The position numbers and the translations under genes were made by a program. From the NCBI GenBank assembly GCA_949293905.1, contig CASFFG010000012.1, forward strand, positions 1-32,494: DNA of 32,494 nucleotides, written 5' to 3'. The notes under the pieces are model-generated. The model had not been told where the DNA came from. It searched no databases and was given only the letters and a program-made list of their open reading frames with translations. This document shows positions 6,416 through 29,018 of the stretch, in pieces (the stretch's first letter is position 1; the number at the start of each line of letters is the position of its first letter). The DNA is from an uncultured Christensenella sp. GTDB lineage: Bacteria; Bacillota; Clostridia; Christensenellales; UBA1242.

Positions 6416-7297
6416 TTACTTGCTAGATTTTTTAGCGGTTGATTTTGTTGTTTTAGCACTAGACTTAGTTGTCTTGCTTGCAGAAGTCTTAGCGGTACTT
6501 GTCTTAGTTTTTGCCGTTGACTTTGTGCTAGTTTTTGCAGATGACTTAGTAGTTGCGGTTTTTGCTTTTGCCGTACTTGTTGTCGTCTTTTTAGCAGCGG
6601 TTTTAGCAGGTTTTTCTTCTACCTTAGCATCTACTGCAACGCTTTCTATTGGGCTAGTTTCAACAGGCTCAACAACTACATTTTCGCTAACCTTTGCTTC
6701 TACTGGCTGAGATGCCTTCTTTGTCGTAGATTTAGTAGTTGTTTTAGCGGTATTAGAAGCAGATTTAGTTGTTTTTGCACTAGACTTGGTAGCCTTAGCA
6801 GAGGCCTTAGCCGTACTAGACTTAGCACTAGTTTTAGTAGTAGCCTTAGAATGTTTTTCTTCCGTCTTAGGCTCAACAATCTCACTTACTACTGGCTCAC
6901 TAACTGCACTTTCACTAACATTTGCGTTAGTAGACTTAGTTGTCTTCTTAGCAGTTGATTTTGCACCCGCTTTTGATGCTGTTTTAGCAGTAGACTTTGC
7001 GGTCTTAGTCGTAGATTTAGTTTTAGCAGTTGTACTCTTTTTTGCCTTAGCAGCAGACACTTCTTCCACAGGAGCGGTCTCTTCCTTAGGTTCAACCACT
7101 TCGCTAACACTAGGTTCGCTAACAGTCGCTTTTGAGTCCCCAACTCCGTCGCTTTCAACCGCCAAAATCTTATCCTGGAAATCGCGCATGATCTTCTTAT
7201 CCTTTCTATCCATTAAGATAAGAACAACAATTAAAGCCACGATAATAGCGATTATGATTAATACTATCCACCACCAATTATTTGCTATAAAATCCAT
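6416..7297 (-). CDS. Membrane-anchored protein with histone-H1-like Lys/Thr/Ala/Ser repeats
   Basis: A 293-aa protein. An N-terminal membrane helix (about 7-28, WWWIVLIIIAI..) is followed by LMDRKDKKIMRDF and then three alternating modules. Each has an acidic block with the motif VSE(P/S).VSE(V/I)VEPK.E (about 56-78, 118-142, 200-232) followed by a long basic block of TAK, TKS, SAK and KTT units. The C-terminus from about 232 to the end is almost only K, T, A and S. The composition resembles the C-terminal tail of histone H1 and bacterial H1-like proteins, but here it is tethered to the membrane. With the N-terminus outside or inside undetermined, it could bind DNA/RNA at the membrane or polyanions of the wall. 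AAGGGG lies upstream of the ATG. Antisense ORFs across it are shadows of the repeats. Confidence 0.85.
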   Translation of the reverse strand: MDFIANNWWWIVLIIIAIIVALIVVLILMDRKDKKIMRDFQDKILAVESDGVGDSKATVSEPSVSEVVEPKEETAPVEEVSAAKAKKSTTAKTKSTTKTAKSTAKTASKAGAKSTAKKTTKSTNANVSESAVSEPVVSEIVEPKTEEKHSKATTKTSAKSSTAKASAKATKSSAKTTKSASNTAKTTTKSTTKKASQPVEAKVSENVVVEPVETSPIESVAVDAKVEEKPAKTAAKKTTTSTAKAKTATTKSSAKTSTKSTAKTKTSTAKTSASKTTKSSAKTTKSTAKKSSK

Positions 7298-12956: not shown

Positions 12957-13622
12957 ATGAAATACAATTTAGATAAAAGTTGGAGTGAAGTTTTAACTCC
13001 GCGATTTGATATAGATTACAAAAGAAAACTTTTTTCTTGGCTTGAAAATGAGTACAACACTAAAACTATTTTCCCGCCGAAAGAAAAAATTTTTAATGCG
13101 CTAAATCTTGTCCCTATCGAGCAGGTTAAAGTCGTCATTGTCGGTCAAGACCCGTACCATGTCGAAGGTCAAGCGGACGGGCTTGCGTTTAGTTGTCACA
13201 ACGGGACTCCGCAACCTAGCCTTAAAAATATATTTAAAGAAATTCATGTTGACCTAGGAATTGATATGAGCGGGAACACAGATTTGACGAGTTGGGCAAA
13301 ACAAGGTGTATTACTTTTAAACACAAGTCTAACCGTAGTAGCGCACACTCCTGCGAGTCACGCAAACGAACTTTGGCACACCTTCACGCGCGAGATAATA
13401 AAAATTTTAAACGAGAGAAATCAACCCATCGTGTTCATGCTTTGGGGAAATCATGCAAAACAATTTTTACCACTTTTAACAAATCCTAATCACTTAATTT
13501 TACAGTCCGCGCACCCTAGCCCATTCTCCGCGTATAACGGATTTTTTGGTTGCAAACATTTTTCAAAATGCAACGCGTTTTTATCTTCCCACGGACTAAC
13601 TCCCATCGATTGGAAATTGTAA
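12957..13622 (+). CDS. ung: Uracil-DNA glycosylase (family 1)
   Basis: A 221-aa base-excision repair enzyme that removes uracil from DNA. The water-activating loop GQDPYH (63-68, Asp65 equivalent), GLAFS (75-79), the PPSLKN-like QPSLKNI, LLLNTSLTV, and the DNA-intercalating HPSPFSAYNGFFG loop are all present, as is FSKCN near the end. Length is normal for the family. The ATG at 12957 is preferred; a TTG 15 nt upstream overlaps the -10 box. The mRNA is predicted leaderless. It precedes the ileS leader; no strong terminator separates them. Confidence 0.96.
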   Translation: MKYNLDKSWSEVLTPRFDIDYKRKLFSWLENEYNTKTIFPPKEKIFNALNLVPIEQVKVVIVGQDPYHVEGQADGLAFSCHNGTPQPSLKNIFKEIHVDLGIDMSGNTDLTSWAKQGVLLLNTSLTVVAHTPASHANELWHTFTREIIKILNERNQPIVFMLWGNHAKQFLPLLTNPNHLILQSAHPSPFSAYNGFFGCKHFSKCNAFLSSHGLTPIDWKL

Positions 13623-13701: not shown

Positions 13702-13730
13702 TTGACAAAATTGAGTGCTTGGTATAAAAT
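13702..13730 (+). promoter_or_regulatory. Promoter P1 upstream of ileS, drives mini-ORF 1
   Basis: TTGACA (13702-13707), 17 nt, TAAAAT (13725-13730), then 6 nt to an ATG at 13737. The architecture is the same as for the leaderless genes nearby. Confidence 0.6.
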
Positions 13731-13736
13731 ATAGTT

Positions 13737-13799
13737 ATGGTTCAATTTATTGTTGTGGTTCTCATGATATGCTGGGCATTCTTACCAGTTAAATTTTAG
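13737..13799 (+). CDS. Mini-ORF 1, 20-residue hydrophobic peptide, leaderless
   Basis: Predicted peptide MVQFIVVVLMICWAFLPVKF. The ATG lies exactly at the expected +1 of a TTGACA-17-TAAAAT promoter. The peptide is one hydrophobic segment with a Lys-Phe end. It could be a small membrane peptide, or a first leader peptide of ileS, as it is rich in Val/Leu/Ile. No ribosome site is present. CTGG/CCAG near its end gives only a weak hairpin. Support is positional; conservation is unknown. Confidence 0.35.
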   Translation: MVQFIVVVLMICWAFLPVKF

Positions 13800-13812
13800 T
13801 TGTTGTATTTAT

Positions 13813-13841
13813 TTGACAAATACATAGATTTTTAGTATCAT
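13813..13841 (+). promoter_or_regulatory. Promoter P2 of the ileS leader
   Basis: TTGACA (13813-13818), 17 nt, TATCAT (13836-13841), then 6 nt to the ATG of the leader peptide at 13848. Confidence 0.65.
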
Positions 13842-13847
13842 TGATAT

Positions 13848-13904
13848 ATGAATTTTAGAAATTCGATAGTCATTAGCAAAATAATTATTACATCTAAGTT
13901 TTAG
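13848..13904 (+). CDS. Putative ileS leader peptide, isoleucine-rich, leaderless
   Basis: An 18-residue ORF, MNFRNSIVISKIIITSKF. Five of 18 codons are Ile, including three in a row (ATA ATT ATT at 13881-13889). It lies immediately before isoleucyl-tRNA synthetase, with its ATG at the predicted +1 of P2. The stop (13902-13904) is 4 nt before the 5' arm of an alternative RNA helix. Stalling at the Ile run would leave that arm free, and finishing translation would cover it. This matches classical leader-peptide attenuation. AT-rich DNA favours Ile codons, so the claim rests on the combination of promoter, stop position and alternative hairpins. Confidence 0.55.
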   Translation: MNFRNSIVISKIIITSKF

Positions 13905-13908
13905 ATGC

Positions 13909-13954
13909 GCGTTTTGCTGTGATAAGGTATGACCAGCAGACGCTGGCATTTTTT
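13909..13954 (+). promoter_or_regulatory. ileS attenuator: competing antiterminator and terminator hairpins
   Basis: Terminator: CCAGC (13933-13937), loop AGAC, GCTGG (13942-13946), then CA and six T (13949-13954). Competing helix: GCGTTT-T-GCTG (13909-13919) pairs with CAGC-AGACGC (13934-13943), 10 pairs with one bulge and one G-U, and uses most of the terminator bases. The two structures cannot coexist. No T-box signature (AGGGTGGNACCGCG) is present. The ileS ribosome site follows 13 nt after the T-run. Confidence 0.6.
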
Positions 13955-13976
13955 AAAGTTGGATTTAGGAGAAGGT

Positions 13977-16900
13977 ATGAAAAAAGAGCAAGGTTGTTTA
14001 GATTATGTGAAAATGGAAGAAGGTATCTTAAAATTTTGGGAAGATAATGATATTTTCTCTAAACTAAAAGCAAAAAATAAAAAGACGGGCAAATATTTTG
14101 CAACTCTTGACGGCCCAATTACTGCGAATTACACTATGGGTCTTCACCATGCTTACAATCGTACATTTAAGGACGCAATGATTAAGTTTGAAGCGCTATG
14201 TGGTTACGACCAGCACTATCAAAACGGATTTGATGCGCACGGGCTTCCTGTTGAAAAGAAGGTGGAAGAAGCACTAGGCCTAGATAGTAAAAAGGATATT
14301 GAGAAATACGGAATAGACAAGTTCGTCAAAGCATGTATGGATTCGGTCAAGAAATATTCCGCTCTTCAAACTAAATCTTCAATTAGGCTCGGTCAATGGA
14401 TGAACTGGGAGGATAGTTACTACACGAACAGTGACGAAAATATCACTGCAATTTGGTATTTCTTGAAAAAGTGTCATGAGAAAGGTTGGATTCAACAATC
14501 TTACCGCCCTACTCCATGGTGTACCCGTTGCGGAACGAGTATCGCTGAAAATGATATGTCGGGAGATGATGTTTACCGCGATGATACTTGTCAAGCGATC
14601 TTCTTTAAATGCCCGATAAAAAATAGCAACAATGATATCCTTGTTTGGACAACAACTCCTTGGACGTTGTGTGCAAATGTAGCCGTGGCTGTAAATCCTG
14701 AATTCAACTATAATATCTTAAAAGTTAAGTCTAGCGAGCGAAATTTAATCGTCATGGCTGACCTTATGAAAGTGCTAAAAGACGATGTGGTGAGCGTCAT
14801 CAAGACGGTTAAAGGTAGCGAACTCGTTGGGCTAACTTATGAAACCTGCTTCCCTGAACTTGACGAACAACAATTTGAACATAAAATTGTTGCTTGGGAT
14901 TTAGTAGATGCGACAGAAGGTGCGGGCGCTGTGCATATTGCACCAGGCTGCGGTGAGAGCGACTACGATTTAGGAAAATTGCTCGGGTTAAAAAATATAA
15001 TTCCTATCGACGAAGCAGGACTATTCTACCCTAATTTTGGAGTTCTAGCAGGGAAAGATGCAAATAGCGATGAAACTCGTGACTTTATATTTGATGTTTT
15101 AAAACAACGCGGAAAGGTATACTATACTCACAAATATGTTCACCGCTACCCACATTGTCACAGATGTAAGCGTCCACTTGTTTACAGACTTATCACTCAG
15201 TGGGTTATAAAAATGGACGAAATTCGCCCTGAGTTGATTTCTGCTATCGACAATGTTGAGTTTAATCCGCCTTTTATGAAAAAGCGTATGTTGGACTGGT
15301 TGAACAATATGGGAGATTGGTCTATTAGTAGAAACAGGTATTACGGACTTCCACTACCTTTCTATAAATGTAGTAAATGTGGTGAGTTGACTGTGGTTGG
15401 TTCGCTAAACGAACTCAAAAAATTATCTAGTGAAGAAGAAGTGGACGCAATGCCACACATTCATCGCCCATATATTGATAAAATCAAAATCACTTGCCCG
15501 AAATGTCACGCGAAAGTGGAACGAATTAAAGAAGTCGGCGACGCGTGGTTGGACGCAGGTATCACTCCATTTAGCACAAAAAAGTATTTCACTGATAAAG
15601 AATTTTTCGCTAAAAACTTCCCTATTGAGTGCGTGATTGAAGGAAAGGAACAAATTAGACTTTGGTTCTACTCGCTATTAGTTATGAGCATAGTTATAAC
15701 TGGCAAAGCACCTTATAAGAGAATAGGTACTACTCCTATGCTCCTTGCGCAGGACGGAAAGAAATTATCTAAATCTAGCCCTAATAACATTCCGCTAGAC
15801 GAGGCATTTAAAGAGATTGGTGCAGATATAATTAGATATAATTTCGTTGCTACCCCACTCACGAGCGATGTTAAATTCGGGCGCGAGTCATGTGACGAAG
15901 TTAAGAGAAAATTATTGGGGCTTTGGAACGCATATATCTTCCTTAACACTTATGCGTATATCGATAAACCAGATCTAACAAATTACAACCCAAAGGCTAG
16001 CGAGTTAACATTCATGGATAAATGGCTAATTAACCGCGTGAATGAATTTACCGCTAACTCGTTTGACGCGTACTCGGTACAAGATTTTGGAACGGTCGCA
16101 AAAGATTTCGAGAACTTAGTGGACGAACTCACTAACTGGTACATTAGAAATAATAGGCGTAGATTCTACAAGAGCGAAAACAATTTTGATACTATGAACG
16201 CATACTTCTGTCTACTCTATGCTATTAAAAACATATGCATGGTTATGTTCCCTATTGTGCCGTTTATTAGCGAATTTTTGTGGCAAAATGCTGTTCGCGA
16301 GTTAGATAAAAATGCGAGTGAGTCTGTCGCTTTAAACGGATATAATGTTGCCGAATTTAAAGTTAAAGACATTGGATACACTGAGAAAACTAACATTGTG
16401 CGCGACATCTTCACTATGGCAAGTAAACTTAGAAACGAAAATCAAATAAAAGTAAAACAACCGCTTAAAACTATGTATATCAACGGAAATTCGTTAGTTG
16501 CTGACGCGGTAAATCTATATAAAGACATCATTGAAAGCGAATTAAATATCAAGAATGTGGTTATGGAACACGATAACTCTAAATTTAATGATGAACTTTT
16601 GTCCCTTGATTTTAGACGCGCGGGCGCTGTGCTTAAAGCGAATGTGCAAAAAGTAAAACAACTTTTATTAGATGCAAGTGCAACAGATATGGCGCGCATG
16701 GTGGCGGAATATAAGGCTGGCAAGGTAAACGTAGGTGAATTTAAAGATTTAGATAGCGAGTTATTCACTCTCACTACCAAACCGAAGGAAGAATTCGTAA
16801 TCGCTAGCGATAACAATATAACTGTCGTACTAGACATAACAATAAATCGTGAACTTCTACTTGAAGGATTATCTCGTGAATTGATACGCTCTGCACAAGT

Positions 16901-17111
16901 GATGCGTAAGGACGCGGGATTTAATGTCGACGATCGAATTTACATCGAATTCAACACAGAAAGCAGTGATTTAAAAGAGATTTTAACTAAATTCGAAAGC
17001 AAGATTAAGAGTGAACTTTTAGTTAAAGGAATTACAAAAATTTCTAACCCAGAGTACTCACAGACAGTGGACATTGCGGACGAAAAGATAGAAATTAAAA
17101 TGAAAAGATAA
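13977..17111 (+). CDS. ileS: Isoleucyl-tRNA synthetase (long, eukaryote-like type)
   Basis: A 1044-aa class I aminoacyl-tRNA synthetase that charges tRNA-Ile. In order: the ATP site, where the usual HIGH reads GLHH in ANYTMGLHHAYNRTFKD (about 50-67); WTTTPWTL and the editing-domain motif GAGAVHIAPGCGESDYDLG; two Cys-rich zinc knuckles (CHRC/CxxC about 390-520); KLSKS (about 594-598); the anticodon-binding helical domain; and a C-terminal extension. The ATG at 13977 has AGGAG 5 nt upstream and gives the normal MKKEQGCLDYVKMEEGILKFW start. A reading from 13929 would run through the terminator hairpin and is rejected. The long type is usually mupirocin-tolerant. Expression is probably set by the attenuator upstream. 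Confidence 0.96.
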   Translation: MKKEQGCLDYVKMEEGILKFWEDNDIFSKLKAKNKKTGKYFATLDGPITANYTMGLHHAYNRTFKDAMIKFEALCGYDQHYQNGFDAHGLPVEKKVEEALGLDSKKDIEKYGIDKFVKACMDSVKKYSALQTKSSIRLGQWMNWEDSYYTNSDENITAIWYFLKKCHEKGWIQQSYRPTPWCTRCGTSIAENDMSGDDVYRDDTCQAIFFKCPIKNSNNDILVWTTTPWTLCANVAVAVNPEFNYNILKVKSSERNLIVMADLMKVLKDDVVSVIKTVKGSELVGLTYETCFPELDEQQFEHKIVAWDLVDATEGAGAVHIAPGCGESDYDLGKLLGLKNIIPIDEAGLFYPNFGVLAGKDANSDETRDFIFDVLKQRGKVYYTHKYVHRYPHCHRCKRPLVYRLITQWVIKMDEIRPELISAIDNVEFNPPFMKKRMLDWLNNMGDWSISRNRYYGLPLPFYKCSKCGELTVVGSLNELKKLSSEEEVDAMPHIHRPYIDKIKITCPKCHAKVERIKEVGDAWLDAGITPFSTKKYFTDKEFFAKNFPIECVIEGKEQIRLWFYSLLVMSIVITGKAPYKRIGTTPMLLAQDGKKLSKSSPNNIPLDEAFKEIGADIIRYNFVATPLTSDVKFGRESCDEVKRKLLGLWNAYIFLNTYAYIDKPDLTNYNPKASELTFMDKWLINRVNEFTANSFDAYSVQDFGTVAKDFENLVDELTNWYIRNNRRRFYKSENNFDTMNAYFCLLYAIKNICMVMFPIVPFISEFLWQNAVRELDKNASESVALNGYNVAEFKVKDIGYTEKTNIVRDIFTMASKLRNENQIKVKQPLKTMYINGNSLVADAVNLYKDIIESELNIKNVVMEHDNSKFNDELLSLDFRRAGAVLKANVQKVKQLLLDASATDMARMVAEYKAGKVNVGEFKDLDSELFTLTTKPKEEFVIASDNNITVVLDITINRELLLEGLSRELIRSAQVMRKDAGFNVDDRIYIEFNTESSDLKEILTKFESKIKSELLVKGITKISNPEYSQTVDIADEKIEIKMKR

Positions 17112-24316: not shown

Positions 24317-26161
24317 ATGGCGGAAGCAGTTATAAAGAAGTCGCGTAAAAGTTTGCGCGAAGAAAGAAAAAAAGAAAAAATATACAGAAAAGAACACAAC
24401 ATTCCGTCAATCACAAATTACTTAAAAGACTATAAAGGATATATATTCTCCTTTATTTTTGTTATGCTTTTGTCGAGCGCGTGTAGTGTCGCTGTGACTA
24501 TAATTTCCGCAGAAGCGATAGCTAATATTACAAATCTACTCTATCGTACAGCAATCACTCAGGCTATTCTAGTCGCTGTCCTAAACATACTTATCTGTCT
24601 ATTAAATTTAACAATGAATCAAATATATGTTAAATTTTCTCGCATCATTGTCGCTAGGCTGAACAAAGATCTATCTAGACAGGCTTTTAAATTTAATGCT
24701 ACTACATACGCAAATAATCCTAGCGGAACTTTTGTTCAGCGTATTACAAATGACCCACAAACTTTAATCGATCAACTATCAAATGTCGTTGAACGGGTCG
24801 TTACAATTATTGAACATTTAATTATCTGCGCCTACATATTTTATTTGAATTATATAGTTGGTATAGTGTTCGTTGTCGGTATGATAATATCGTTTACTGT
24901 CGACAGAATTAGAATAAAACTTATGTATAAAAATAGAAAAATCGCAAACAAAAAGTATGATAAAATTCATTCTCTCACCACTGAGATTGTAAAAAGCGAA
25001 CGCGATGTAAAATCGCTTAATTTGGAAAAAAAGTTGAGTGAAGTTTCAAACAAATATTATGCAGACATTAATTCATTTAATTATAAAAGAGGTTTACAAG
25101 ATTCTTCTCTCAATCAACTAAAAAACATTATAAACAATATCGTGACATATGGTGCGATGGTACTTGGAATTGTGCTTTTGGAAAAGAGTCTTATCGTGTT
25201 CTCCACATTTATGATAATATTCTCTAATCGTGCGAATTTTAACAATCTAATTTTTAATTTAAGTTACCTGCTCGATATAAAAGTTGATATAGATGTTTGT
25301 AGTGAACGCATATTTGCGCTCTTTGACCCGCGCAAATTCCCAGTCGAAGATTTTGGTACAGTAAAACTAGATAAAGTTAAAGGTAAAATTCAGTTTAAAA
25401 AAGTCGGCTATGCATACGAAGATAAATTACGAAATAAAAACGATTTAAATAGCGAAAATGATGAGAGCGCGATTGTAAAAAATGAAAAAGTATTAAAAAA
25501 TCTATCGTTTACGATAAAACCTAATACGACGGTTGCGTTTGTTGGGAAATCGGGAAGCGGAAAGTCGACTATCGTATCCTTGATGTCTAAAATGTATAAG
25601 GTAGACGAAGGTGAAATCTTAATTGATGGTGTGAATATTAACGATTTAACGAAAGAAACATTAAGAAACAATATCTCGCTTGTCAATCAATTCCCTTACA
25701 TTTTCGATATGTCTATCCGCGAAAATTTACTTATGGCTAAGGCTGATGCAACCGATGAAGAAATCAATCAAGTGATTGATCGGGCATATCTAAGGGAATT
25801 TGTAGATACTCTACCGAATGGCATTAACACTGTGGTCGGCGAAAGCGGAATTAAACTCTCGGGTGGGCAAAGACAAAGACTTGCAATAGCACGCGCTCTA
25901 CTTAGAAAATCTAGCATTATTATATTTGACGAAAGCACTAGTTCGCTCGACAATTACGCGCAAGAATATGTGAAAAAGAGTATCGATGATTTGAAAGGTA
26001 GTAGTACTATCGTTATAGTTGCGCATAGGCTCACGACAATTAAGAATGCAGATGAGATTTTCTTCCTTGATGAAGGGAAAATTATTGACAAAGGAACTTT
26101 TGACGAATTATTTGAGAAAAATAAAAAGTTTAGAAACATGTTCCTTGCGGAAAATATTTAA
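24317..26161 (+). CDS. ABC exporter half-transporter 1
   Basis: A 614-aa type IV (MsbA/LmrA-like) half-transporter. A basic cytoplasmic N-terminus (1-30) is followed by six membrane helices (about 40-330) and a nucleotide-binding domain (about 350-614). Walker A is GKSGSGKST (about 410), the Q-loop is VNQFPYIFD, the signature is LSGGQRQR (about 514), Walker B plus catalytic Glu is IIIFDESTSS, and the H-loop is AHRLTT. All ATPase residues are intact. An unusual charged insert (KLRNKNDLNSENDESAIVKN) sits after the A-loop Tyr. AGGGGG ribosome site. The substrate cannot be read from sequence. It probably works with the adjacent paralogue. Confidence 0.92.
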   Translation: MAEAVIKKSRKSLREERKKEKIYRKEHNIPSITNYLKDYKGYIFSFIFVMLLSSACSVAVTIISAEAIANITNLLYRTAITQAILVAVLNILICLLNLTMNQIYVKFSRIIVARLNKDLSRQAFKFNATTYANNPSGTFVQRITNDPQTLIDQLSNVVERVVTIIEHLIICAYIFYLNYIVGIVFVVGMIISFTVDRIRIKLMYKNRKIANKKYDKIHSLTTEIVKSERDVKSLNLEKKLSEVSNKYYADINSFNYKRGLQDSSLNQLKNIINNIVTYGAMVLGIVLLEKSLIVFSTFMIIFSNRANFNNLIFNLSYLLDIKVDIDVCSERIFALFDPRKFPVEDFGTVKLDKVKGKIQFKKVGYAYEDKLRNKNDLNSENDESAIVKNEKVLKNLSFTIKPNTTVAFVGKSGSGKSTIVSLMSKMYKVDEGEILIDGVNINDLTKETLRNNISLVNQFPYIFDMSIRENLLMAKADATDEEINQVIDRAYLREFVDTLPNGINTVVGESGIKLSGGQRQRLAIARALLRKSSIIIFDESTSSLDNYAQEYVKKSIDDLKGSSTIVIVAHRLTTIKNADEIFFLDEGKIIDKGTFDELFEKNKKFRNMFLAENI

Positions 26162-26267
26162 TCTAACTAAATTAGTATAAAATCTAAATTATTAACATTC
26201 TACGTACTTAAATTTTATTGTGAAATCAAAAATAATGACATTTAATTTACAATTTTTAGGAGGTTTA

Positions 26268-28112
26268 ATGGCGGAAGCAGTTATAAAGAAGTCGCGTAAA
26301 AGTTTGCGCGAAGAAAGAAAAAAGGAAAAATTATACAGAAAAGAACACAACATTCCGTCAATCACAAATTATTTAAAAGACTACAAAGGATATATCTTTT
26401 CTTTTATTTTAGTCATGCTATTTTCTATGGCTGTGAATATAGCTATTACGATTTTAAGCGCGGAAGCAATCACGAATGTTACTAATCAATTATTTTGGTT
26501 AGCAATAAGGCAGGCATTAATCGTGCTCACTCTTAGAGTGACAGATTTCCTTACAACATTCCTTCTCGACTACATATATTCAAAATTTTCAAAGTTGATT
26601 ACAACGAGATTAAATAGCGATTTATCTAGTCAGGCGTTTAAATTTAGCGCGACAACATATGCTAACAACCCGAGCGGGACTTTCATTCAACGAATTATAT
26701 ATGACCCGCAAAATCTCATTGGTTCACTAACTAATGTGGTTGAAGTTATTTCAATTGCAATTGAGCAGTTAATTATTTGCGCATATATTTTCTACTTGAA
26801 TTACATTGTTGGTTTGGTGTTCGTTATAGGTATGATTTTATCCCTTGTTATTGAACGAATTAGAGTGCGACTTAATGTAAAATATAGGAAAATTTCGAAT
26901 AAAAAATATGACAAAATTCAATCTCTCACTACTGAAATTGTAAAGAGTGAGCGCGATGTGAAATCACTTAATTTAGAGACATCGCTTAGCAAAGTTTCGT
27001 CTAAATATTATGATGATCACAATGCCTTTGAATATAAGAAAAAAACAATCAATAATTCCCTAAATCAAACAAGAAGTATAATCAATAATATCATTACATA
27101 CGGTGCAATGATTCTTGGAATTGTACTTTTGGAAAAGAGCCTTATCGTGTTCTCCACCTTTATGATTATCATTAACAACCGCCCTAGTTTTAATATGTTA
27201 ATTTTCAATTTAAGTTACCTATTTGATATTAAATCTACTATAGATGTCTATAATGAGCGAATATTTGCACTCTTTGACCCGCGCAAATTCCCAGTTGAAG
27301 ATTTTGGTTCAATTAAACTGGATAAAGTTAAAGGTAAAATTCAGTTTAAAAAAGTCGGCTACGCATACGAAGACAAATTACGAAATAAAAACGACTTAAA
27401 TAGCGAACATGACGAAAGCAGTTCAATAAAAAATAAAAAAGTTTTAGATAATCTCTCCTTTACCATAAAACCAAACACAACTGTGGCTTTCGTTGGAAAA
27501 TCAGGAAGCGGAAAATCTACTATTGTGTCCTTAATGTCTAAAATGTATAAAGTGGACGAAGGCGAAATCTTAATCGACGGCGTGAATATTAACGATTTGA
27601 CGAAAGAAACACTAAGAAATAATATCTCGCTTGTCAATCAATTCCCTTACATTTTCGATATGTCTATCCGCGAAAATTTACTTATGGCTAAGGCGGACGC
27701 AACTAATGAAGAATTGAATTCAGCGATTGACAGGGCATATCTAAGAGAATTTGTAGATACTCTCCCGAACGGCATTAATACTGTTGTCGGCGAAAGCGGA
27801 ATTAAACTCTCTGGTGGGCAAAGGCAAAGGCTTGCAATCGCGCGTGCGTTGCTTAGGAAATCTAGTATTATTATATTTGATGAAAGTACTAGTTCGCTCG
27901 ACAATTACGCGCAAGAATATGTGAAAAAGAGTATTGACGATTTGAAAGGAAGTAGCACTATCGTAATAGTTGCACATAGGCTTACTACTATCAAAAACGC
28001 AGATGTGATTTTCTTCCTTGATGAAGGAAAAATTATCGATAAAGGAACTTTTGATGAGTTATTTGAGAAAAATAAAAAGTTTAGAAGTATGTTCCTTGCT
28101 GAAAATATATAA
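26268..28112 (+). CDS. ABC exporter half-transporter 2 (tandem paralogue)
   Basis: A 614-aa paralogue of the preceding gene, with the same domains and all catalytic motifs intact (GKSGSGKST, LSGGQRQR, IIIFDESTSS, AHRLTT). The first 45 residues and the NBD are almost identical to copy 1, including the DNA around the ribosome site, while the membrane domain (about 50-330) is much more different. The ATG at 26268 with AGGAGG upstream is chosen over a GTG at 26220. Neither copy has the degenerate site of classical heterodimers, so homo- or heterodimers are both possible. The intergenic 26162-26267 shows no promoter or terminator, so the two are probably one operon. Confidence 0.92.
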   Translation: MAEAVIKKSRKSLREERKKEKLYRKEHNIPSITNYLKDYKGYIFSFILVMLFSMAVNIAITILSAEAITNVTNQLFWLAIRQALIVLTLRVTDFLTTFLLDYIYSKFSKLITTRLNSDLSSQAFKFSATTYANNPSGTFIQRIIYDPQNLIGSLTNVVEVISIAIEQLIICAYIFYLNYIVGLVFVIGMILSLVIERIRVRLNVKYRKISNKKYDKIQSLTTEIVKSERDVKSLNLETSLSKVSSKYYDDHNAFEYKKKTINNSLNQTRSIINNIITYGAMILGIVLLEKSLIVFSTFMIIINNRPSFNMLIFNLSYLFDIKSTIDVYNERIFALFDPRKFPVEDFGSIKLDKVKGKIQFKKVGYAYEDKLRNKNDLNSEHDESSSIKNKKVLDNLSFTIKPNTTVAFVGKSGSGKSTIVSLMSKMYKVDEGEILIDGVNINDLTKETLRNNISLVNQFPYIFDMSIRENLLMAKADATNEELNSAIDRAYLREFVDTLPNGINTVVGESGIKLSGGQRQRLAIARALLRKSSIIIFDESTSSLDNYAQEYVKKSIDDLKGSSTIVIVAHRLTTIKNADVIFFLDEGKIIDKGTFDELFEKNKKFRSMFLAENI

Positions 28113-28114
28113 AT

Positions 28115-28143
28115 TTGACATAGTCTAAAAATTTTACTATAAT
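28115..28143 (+). promoter_or_regulatory. Perfect-consensus promoter, leaderless start
   Basis: TTGACA (28115-28120), 17 nt, TATAAT (28138-28143), then 5 nt to the ATG at 28149. It begins right after the ABC stop codon. No Shine-Dalgarno is present. Confidence 0.8.
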
Positions 28144-28148
28144 ATAAT

Positions 28149-29018
28149 ATGCGAATTAGAAAGGCTATCTTTCCTATAATGCTCGTTATCTTACTGCTCG
28201 CGATGATTTTGCTAGCAGTTTTTGTTCGTTTCCATAATGAGCAAAAAGAGAGTGCGCGTGTTCTTGGAACATGGTGGTGGAATAGCAATCTTGATGCAGA
28301 ATTATATCTTGATTTTGCGATTGATAACGGAGTAAATGAAATCTATTTTTGTGACGGAGATCTAGATGAAAGTACGACTGAATTTATCACGCGCGCGAAC
28401 GAAAACGATATTAAGGTATTCTACCTAACAGGTGAAAAAGAATGGGTGAATGATTATTCATTAGCGTATGCAGAAATTGATAGGGTACTAAATTTTAATA
28501 ACTCCCACCCTAATGCAAGCTTTGCAGGCGTCCATCTCGATATTGAACCGCACCAATTCGATGATTTCGAACTCAATCGCTCTACCCTGATTTACAACCT
28601 TATTGATTTGGCAAGCAATTTAAATGAAAGATACCCTGAGTTGCGTTTTGACTATGACATTCCGTTTTGGTTTCATGACGAAATCGAGTATGCAGGCGTT
28701 ATTAAGCCTGCTTATGCGCACATGATTGACATAGCAGACCATGTTTTTATCATGAGTTACAGGGACAGCGCGGAAAAAATGTTGGAGTGCGCGAGCGAGG
28801 AAATCGATTACGCAACGACGAACGGAAAACCACTGATTTTATGTGCGGAGACTTCTCAAATAAAAAATGATGACGGGACGGAAGAACCTGAAATCACATA
28901 TTATGAAGAAGGGATAAGCATACTAAATAGCGAATTAGAAAAAATAAGATCCACTCTACCCGCCACCTTTGGTATATCCATTCACCACATTTATTCATGG
29001 TATAATTTAAAAAAGTGA
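28149..29018 (+). CDS. Membrane-anchored GH18-like TIM-barrel protein
   Basis: A 289-aa protein. Residues 7-27 form an N-terminal membrane anchor or uncleaved signal, so the rest is probably outside. The body resembles a glycoside-hydrolase TIM barrel: VLGTWWW (38-44), a GVNEIYFCDGD strand, FAGVHLDIEPH (125-135) like the GH18 DxxDxDxE strand with Glu133 in the catalytic place, ADHVFIMSYRD and a terminal HHIYSWYNL. The fully canonical DGxDxDxE is not present, so activity may differ or be lost. Leaderless start behind a consensus promoter; followed by a terminator. A wall or polysaccharide role is inferred. Confidence 0.65.
   Translation: MRIRKAIFPIMLVILLLAMILLAVFVRFHNEQKESARVLGTWWWNSNLDAELYLDFAIDNGVNEIYFCDGDLDESTTEFITRANENDIKVFYLTGEKEWVNDYSLAYAEIDRVLNFNNSHPNASFAGVHLDIEPHQFDDFELNRSTLIYNLIDLASNLNERYPELRFDYDIPFWFHDEIEYAGVIKPAYAHMIDIADHVFIMSYRDSAEKMLECASEEIDYATTNGKPLILCAETSQIKNDDGTEEPEITYYEEGISILNSELEKIRSTLPATFGISIHHIYSWYNLKK

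Follow-up and report, generated by a model that had tools for sequence, protein, structure and literature searches.

How is the isoleucine--tRNA ligase gene (ileS) of an uncultured bacterium of the Christensenellales controlled, when an isoleucine-rich ORF and two competing hairpins, and not a T-box riboswitch, stand between it and its promoter? We addressed this question in the window, by which we mean the whole stretch of 32,494 nucleotides analysed. It is contig 12 of a 1.09 Mb, AT-rich genome, from the genus that holds Candidatus Onthoplasma, a group of gut bacteria whose genomes are very small. According to a 2025 paper, the family UBA1242, Onthoplasma included, has neither pathways for amino-acid biosynthesis nor the standard transporters for amino acids (PMC12306168). 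Our genus sample consisted of 34 genomes (G000-G033), and the region upstream of ileS was read in all of them. We hypothesize that ileS is preceded by a trp-type ribosome-mediated transcription attenuator sensing charged tRNA-Ile, a reading to which we give a probability of roughly 0.85. The evidence from the window alone is suggestive only; it is conservation across the genus that decides.

Organization of the ileS leader

The following elements were identified upstream of ileS:

13813-13841, + strand: sigma-70-like promoter TTGACA-17-TATCAT (TTGACA 13813-13818, 17 nt, TATCAT 13836-13841), its -10 box 6 nt upstream of the leader ATG; a similar promoter is present in 34/34 genomes
13848-13904, + strand: leader ORF MNFRNSIVISKIIITSKF, 18 codons, ATG at 13848, TAG at 13902-13904
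13874-13882, + strand: segment 1 (TAGCAAAAT), which can pair with segment 2 at 13911-13919, giving the protector helix 1:2
13891-13907, + strand: hairpin P1, CATCTAA/TTAGATG, enclosing the leader stop codon
13909-13919, + strand: segment 2 (S2), 5' arm of the antiterminator, pairing with segment 3 (from the alignment of the genus leaders)
13934-13943, + strand: segment 3 (S3), 3' arm of the antiterminator, overlapping the 5' arm and loop of the terminator
13929-13954, + strand: intrinsic terminator 3:4, ATG(A)CCAGC-AGAC-GCTGGCAT followed by a T-run (from terminator scan and folding)
13977-17111, + strand: ileS, isoleucine--tRNA ligase (NCBIfam TIGR00392, an equivalog model, 719 bits against a cut-off of 621)

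The promoter, the Ile-rich ORF, the helix of S2 with S3 and the terminator hairpin with its six T residues had all been named in the preliminary description of this DNA, and every one of them was found again at the same position. The leader ORF contains five Ile codons (13866, 13872, 13881, 13884 and 13887), three of them consecutive. The core of the terminator is formed by CCAGC (13933-13937) and GCTGG (13942-13946), followed by T6 (13949-13954), and its stem is lengthened in the window by an ATG/CAT pairing with a bulged A. The ileS gene has its own Shine-Dalgarno sequence (GGAG, 13968-13971), and ung and glmM lie upstream of the leader (the glmM score being under the cut-off of its model).

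Between positions 13400 and 14100 we found one terminator-like site, compared with 0.3 +/- 0.5 in shuffled sequences. Folding z scores were -3.0 for 13926-13954 and -2.3 for 13885-13943, two stretches picked after the structure had been seen, and -2.4 for 13848-13976. A terminator as good as the observed one, with an overlapping antiterminator, appeared in 10 of 500 shuffles of the stretch that follows the leader in the window. Rfam gave no credible match in the window leader (three hits, E 1.3 to 8.7, with no T-box or attenuator among them), and no Rfam attenuator family reached its gathering score in the window.

Other features of this DNA were also noticed. After the upstream ORF, an inverted repeat TGTATTT/AAATACA followed by T5 (13804-13833) overlaps the -35 box of the leader promoter; a hairpin between that ORF and the -35 box was not above shuffles in the window (z -0.26), and pairing arms of other sequence were seen by eye at the same place in G012 and G018. 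Farther away, two very similar ABC-transporter-like ORFs stand in tandem (24317-26161 and 26220-28112), apparently a recent duplication, and an ORF at 6416-7297 has a hydrophobic start followed by a long repetitive Lys/Ala/Thr/Ser-rich tail.

Conservation of the leader and of the two exclusive helices

We were able to identify, in all 34 genomes of the genus, an Ile-rich leader followed by overlapping antiterminator and terminator, each time after a TTGACA/TATAAT-like promoter. The leaders contain 3-8 Ile codons in 12-23 codons (median 6.5; the leader of G002 has only three), and isoleucine makes up 39.6% of the 550 leader residues vs 7.2% of IleS; since the leaders were chosen by eye from the sequence and checked by script afterwards, the Ile count was not obtained blind. 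Three types were distinguished: type A (20 genomes), with short leaders in which Ile codons flank a motif, in many cases GCAA; type B (11 genomes), with hydrophobic leaders whose C-terminus is mostly ILPIKL; and type C (G003, G022 and G027), with similar Ile runs and helix sequences unrelated to those of the others. In 34/34 genomes we found a terminator hairpin together with a stretch ahead of it that can pair with the 5' arm of that hairpin (in G027 the check covered the last 75 nt only), and a pair of this kind arose in 0 to 20 of 500 shuffles for the genomes other than that of the window.

The preliminary description had named compensatory changes as a check on both helices, and they were observed, more clearly in one than in the other. 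In the alignments of types A and B (31 of the 34 genomes, the three type-C genomes being omitted as not alignable), 89.8% of the antiterminator cells are paired, with a covariation score of 0.190 vs 0.131 +/- 0.010 that none of 500 shuffles reached; one of its pairs is seen as U-A, U-G, A-U and G-C. The terminator is 91.1% paired and its score of 0.189 was reached by 3 of 500 shuffles, a modest signal in which a single pair is changed on both sides. Limited variation of terminator and antiterminator is to be expected, because segment 3 belongs to both helices. Stronger evidence than covariation is provided by type C, in which the layout is kept and the letters are different.

These data bear on the simplest alternative, namely that an ordinary terminator precedes a constitutive ileS and the Ile-rich ORF is a by-product of AT-rich sequence. 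The genome is indeed AT-rich, the double hairpin of the window is expected by chance at about 2%, and the eye had chosen the leaders before the script; nevertheless, the leader is conserved throughout the genus with similar spacing from promoter to ATG, the two exclusive helices are rebuilt from other sequence in type C, and a plain terminator between ileS and its promoter would tend to silence the gene. We consider this alternative very unlikely and retain the attenuator.

A covariance model of the leader (R1) has a single match, located upstream of ileS, in each of 31 genomes of the genus, all of them its own training rows, and misses the three of type C. Among 393 further genomes of the order, taken as a sample, it gave no match, under strict filters and with the best 9 candidates per genome scored. 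Attenuators outside the genus are possible, since R1 is blind to type C and the scoring was limited to those candidates.

Individual leaders show further peculiarities. In G027, about 150 nt able to form long hairpins are inserted between the leader ORF and segment 2, and this insertion may have broken or altered the coupling. In G007, a gene resembling histidine phosphatase (by eye) lies between attenuator and ileS, and both genes may be under the switch. The G008 leader (L204, 489-584) has a weak match to the Rfam family Thr_leader (28 bits against a cut-off of 55, E 0.07), the sole leader-family match in the genus, which probably reflects chance or the common attenuator layout.

T-box riboswitches at ileS and at other synthetase genes

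In the genome of the window, five T-box matches were found, before the genes of aspartate--tRNA(Asn) ligase, thrS, pheS, serS and valS, and none at ileS. Between the thrS T-box and its gene, covered here in part, there is a short frame. The T-box model (RF00230), run at E up to 10, did not match the leader of the window, and it had no match upstream of ileS in the other 33 genomes of the genus (five searched at E up to 0.01, 28 at E up to 1). The claim that a putative attenuator stands at ileS in place of a T-box agrees with these searches in 34/34 genomes.

The distribution is different outside the genus. In the rest of the family, an ileS match was obtained in 20 of the 21 genomes searched, with a T-box directly upstream in 12 of the 20 (G185, G172, G292, G303, G144, G108, G331, G087, G063, G231, G197 and G159) and none in 8; in the rest of the order, T-boxes were present in 12 of 23 stretches upstream of ileS (G057, with an incomplete ileS, was left out). 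Two loci whose IleS falls near or inside the clade of the genus, L074 and L078, also have T-boxes at ileS (E 7e-5 and 8e-11). The preliminary description had regarded a T-box at the same place in relatives as evidence against its proposal: within the genus no such T-box was found among the 34 genomes, and those observed lie only outside it, in the family, and near it, at L074 and L078. The absence holds for these 34 genomes and, in view of L074 and L078, may not extend to every species of the genus.

A T-box at ileS in the genus was tried as a candidate and dropped, being contradicted by the missing matches. A related alternative is that a divergent or degenerate T-box riboswitch was missed by Rfam, in a family where T-boxes at ileS are frequent in other genera and in a genome that has them at five other synthetase genes. 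However, the same model does detect those five, it finds nothing at ileS in any of the 34 genomes of the genus, and the leader measures only about 107 nt from the ATG to the end of the T-run vs the 219 positions of the T-box model. A hidden T-box is, in our judgement, hardly credible, and the attenuator is the reading followed below.

Proposed mechanism and folding in the presence of a ribosome

We propose that transcription would start at, or adjoining, the A of the leader ATG, and that a ribosome would begin right on that 5' end. With ample Ile-tRNA, the ribosome would reach the stop codon and cover segment 2, or depart so that segments 1 and 2 pair, and in either situation the terminator 3:4 would form before ileS. 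When Ile-tRNA is short, the ribosome would stall at the Ile codons, located on and around segment 1, leaving segment 2 free to pair with segment 3, and RNA polymerase would read into ileS. With the protector helix 1:2 added, the layout would be that of a full trp-type attenuator. What the data show are the elements themselves, how widely they are conserved and that the two helices exclude each other; leaderless initiation, ribosome stalling, termination and its control by tRNA-Ile charging are inferred from sequence.

The effect of a ribosome was modelled by equilibrium folding, in which the RNA was removed up to 13 nt beyond the start of the A-site codon. In the window, the probability of the terminator was 1.0 with the ribosome at the stop, 0.00-0.03 whichever of the five Ile codons the ribosome occupied, and 0.99 when no ribosome was present, the last value being high because segments 1 and 2 pair. 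Without a ribosome it exceeded 0.95 in 32/34 genomes (the exceptions being G024 and G027), and with the ribosome at the stop it exceeded 0.5 in 29/34. A ribosome held at the stop would favour the antiterminator in G001, G015, G019, G021 and G026, and termination there would need ribosome release.

The claim that a ribosome at the Ile run lets the antiterminator form agreed with equilibrium folding in the window and, at some Ile codon, in 21/34 genomes, in which the terminator probability fell below 0.5. Agreement was much rarer for the first Ile codon, the most likely halting place of a ribosome under starvation: the probability there was below 0.5 in only 7/34 genomes (median 0.97), and below the value at the stop in 20/34. 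The other 13 genomes, which keep the terminator at every Ile codon, would need co-transcriptional kinetics according to this model. Equilibrium folding therefore yields a clean switch in the window and not in general, and elsewhere the antiterminator would have to form ahead of the terminator, while the RNA is being made. As long as arm 4 is missing, the median folding energy of the free RNA is -14.8 kcal/mol for a ribosome at the first Ile codon vs -5.0 for one at the stop, a gap partly due to the larger amount of free RNA.

The further claim, that the antiterminator's 5' arm is hidden by a ribosome that has reached the stop, agrees with the spacing in part of the genus. The distance from stop to segment 2 is 6-7 nt in 23 of the 34 genomes, 11-15 nt in 10 and 168 nt in G027; in the 10 genomes with 11-15 nt, direct cover of segment 2 is doubtful, and at these distances, as in G027, ribosome release and formation of helix 1:2 would be the better account. 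Helix 1:2 is clear in the window. In a codon-permutation test, it gave 18/1000 in the window, and values of 0.05 or less were obtained in only 9/34 genomes where 1.7 would be expected by chance, a comparison that is not a probability since the genomes are related.

A probably leaderless leader ORF

The -10 box lies 6-7 nt from the leader ATG in 31/34 genomes, and 8, 9 and 11 nt from it in the remaining three. A Shine-Dalgarno-like word was found before the leader ORF in 0/34 genomes and before ileS in 32 of 33 genes (G007 omitted). On account of this spacing and of the absence of a Shine-Dalgarno sequence, the leader ORF is probably leaderless. The exact promoter-ATG pattern, with a spacing of 5-8 nt, occurs at 25 sites in the genome of the window (L095-L119, for example 28115-28151 of the window) and at none in the reversed control; a slightly looser pattern occurs at 31-45 sites in six other genomes vs 1-8 in the control. 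ORFs of at least 72 codons are opened by 19 of the 25 sites. Leaderless initiation looks usual in these genomes, since such sites are abundant and mostly open long ORFs. One of the other 24 sites is a copy of the type-B peptide, and none of the remaining sites in the genome of the window leads into a short ORF with a visible excess of one amino acid. A leaderless leader, if it is one, suggests that ribosomes load at the 5' end of the RNA upon its emergence.

The type-B peptide and its stand-alone copies

A second promoter with a probably leaderless ORF is present in the window, upstream of the attenuator:

13702-13799, + strand: promoter (13702-13730) and ORF (13737-13799) MVQFIVVVLMICWAFLPVKF, a stand-alone copy of the type-B peptide

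The ORF at 13737-13799 is without segments 2-4, and this small gene is related to the switch and probably not part of it. The type-B peptide, of about 20 amino acids, hydrophobic and ending in LPIK(L/F), with LPVK as another form of the end, serves as the ileS leader in 11 genomes and stands alone in 11 others (G000, G012, G018, G004, G005, G006, G009, G025 and G030, with shorter and more diverged variants in G019 and G026). In G004, G005, G006, G009, G025 and G030 the stand-alone copy follows the apparent end of ung (by eye) and ileS is located elsewhere. Within the reach of a 20-residue profile, no genome was found with both a type-B leader and a stand-alone copy, and 12 genomes gave no confident match to either form. 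In G024, two weak second type-B hits were noticed (E 0.02 and 0.04).

At the LPIK end, an alignment of 14 type-B peptides shows no variation of the L, P and K residues, although their codons have changed synonymously; when five more copies are aligned, P and K still do not vary and L hardly does. The pooled pN/pS of five stand-alone copies is 0.16 (from pairs that are not independent), indicating purifying selection, and values of 0.50 to 0.55 were obtained for type-B leaders, type-A leaders and the comparison of G012 with G018.

Such conservation could also mean that the nascent peptide, and not the Ile codons, controls the switch, either by arresting the ribosome or by sensing a small molecule; type B, with its LPIK end, would be the foremost candidate. 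The invariant residues and the selection on the stand-alone copies speak for this alternative; type-A leaders, however, have little in common beyond Ile runs, and the stand-alone type-B copies that were read are without segments 2-4 (by eye), which argues against a link between the conserved end and attenuation. We regard control by the nascent peptide as unlikely, and sensing through the Ile codons as the preferred reading for type B also.

The conserved end, the stand-alone copies and the low pN/pS together suggest a micropeptide with its own function, used as a leader in some species. We advance, tentatively and at rather less than even odds, that the type-B leader is both a functional micropeptide and an isoleucine sensor. 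The two roles would be carried by a single ORF in part of the species and separated in the rest, with sensing passed to a short dedicated type-A leader; a gene for a small protein, recruited as a sensor, would then have taken the place of the ileS T-box. Whether an attenuator leader peptide can also act independently, as is reported for peTrpL of Sinorhizobium (PMC7298713), could be studied with the stand-alone copies.

Exchange of IleS behind the leader

The leader of G009 is of type A and very similar to those of G004, G006 and G030, and the upstream neighbours are common to all four genomes. The IleS of G009 (locus L122) is only 33% identical to that of the window and groups with the IleS of another genus, G034; a distant homologue has thus taken the place of IleS in G009, and the type-A leader before it is intact. 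In G033, G029 and G002, which have type-B attenuators, IleS groups in a quick tree with the T-box-controlled IleS of another genus (G197 and G159). Since the leader is kept while IleS differs, control seems to follow the lineage and not the enzyme. As the IleS trees show gene movement between genera, the number of switches from T-box to attenuator cannot be read from them.

Comparison with known systems

Attenuators with leader peptides are known from amino-acid-biosynthesis operons, namely trp, his, ilv, leu, thr and phe. Like the putative ileS switch, they have a codon-rich leader ORF, helices 2:3 and 3:4 and a U-run terminator before the gene, and their helix 1:2 would have its counterpart in the ileS leader; unlike them, the ileS switch would govern a synthetase gene and its leader ORF is probably leaderless. 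It also occurs in a family reported to be without amino-acid biosynthesis (PMC12306168), and for that reason regulation of charging may be one of the few possible responses to isoleucine shortage.

Attenuators of synthetase genes have been described for pheST in gamma-proteobacteria and predicted for trpS and leuS in Streptomyces; they share with the ileS switch the classical leader-peptide attenuation of a synthetase gene, for other amino acids and in other phyla, as far as the available text goes (PMC1262725). The same 2005 comparative paper, in the part available, has the synthetase genes of Firmicutes mostly under T-box control and none under classical attenuation (PMC1262725). Within Bacillota, leader-peptide attenuators are reported for the ilv-leu operon of S. 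aureus (PMC5794164) and for the his operons of the B. cereus group, Eubacteriales and Erysipelotrichales (PMC9413887). These resemble the ileS switch in using a leader peptide, also in lineages that otherwise use T-boxes, and differ from it in that they serve biosynthetic operons and not a synthetase gene, with no leaderless leaders described in the available parts of these papers (PMC5794164, PMC9413887). A literature search of open-licence PMC articles with chosen terms returned no leader-peptide attenuator at ileS.

The leaderless polycysteine ORFs of mycobacteria, reportedly presented by Canestrari in 2020 as amino-acid-responsive attenuators, are short and leaderless like the ileS leader, and differ from it in amino acid (cysteine), phylum (Actinobacteria) and target genes. 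Trp-type attenuation is itself known; what we propose for ileS in Bacillota is a form of it that works through a leader that is probably leaderless. It is well supported that a lineage of Bacillota has a presumably translated leader at a synthetase gene which many of its relatives put under a T-box, while T-boxes are kept at other synthetases. The ileS T-box (Rfam RF00230) shares with the proposed switch the gene, the presumed signal (tRNA-Ile charging) and the outcome (terminator or read-through); unlike the proposed attenuator, whose elements were found at ileS in the 34 genomes of the genus where the T-box was not, it reads the tRNA directly, without translation. The two thus offer a natural comparison of two sensors for the same signal, gene and outcome.
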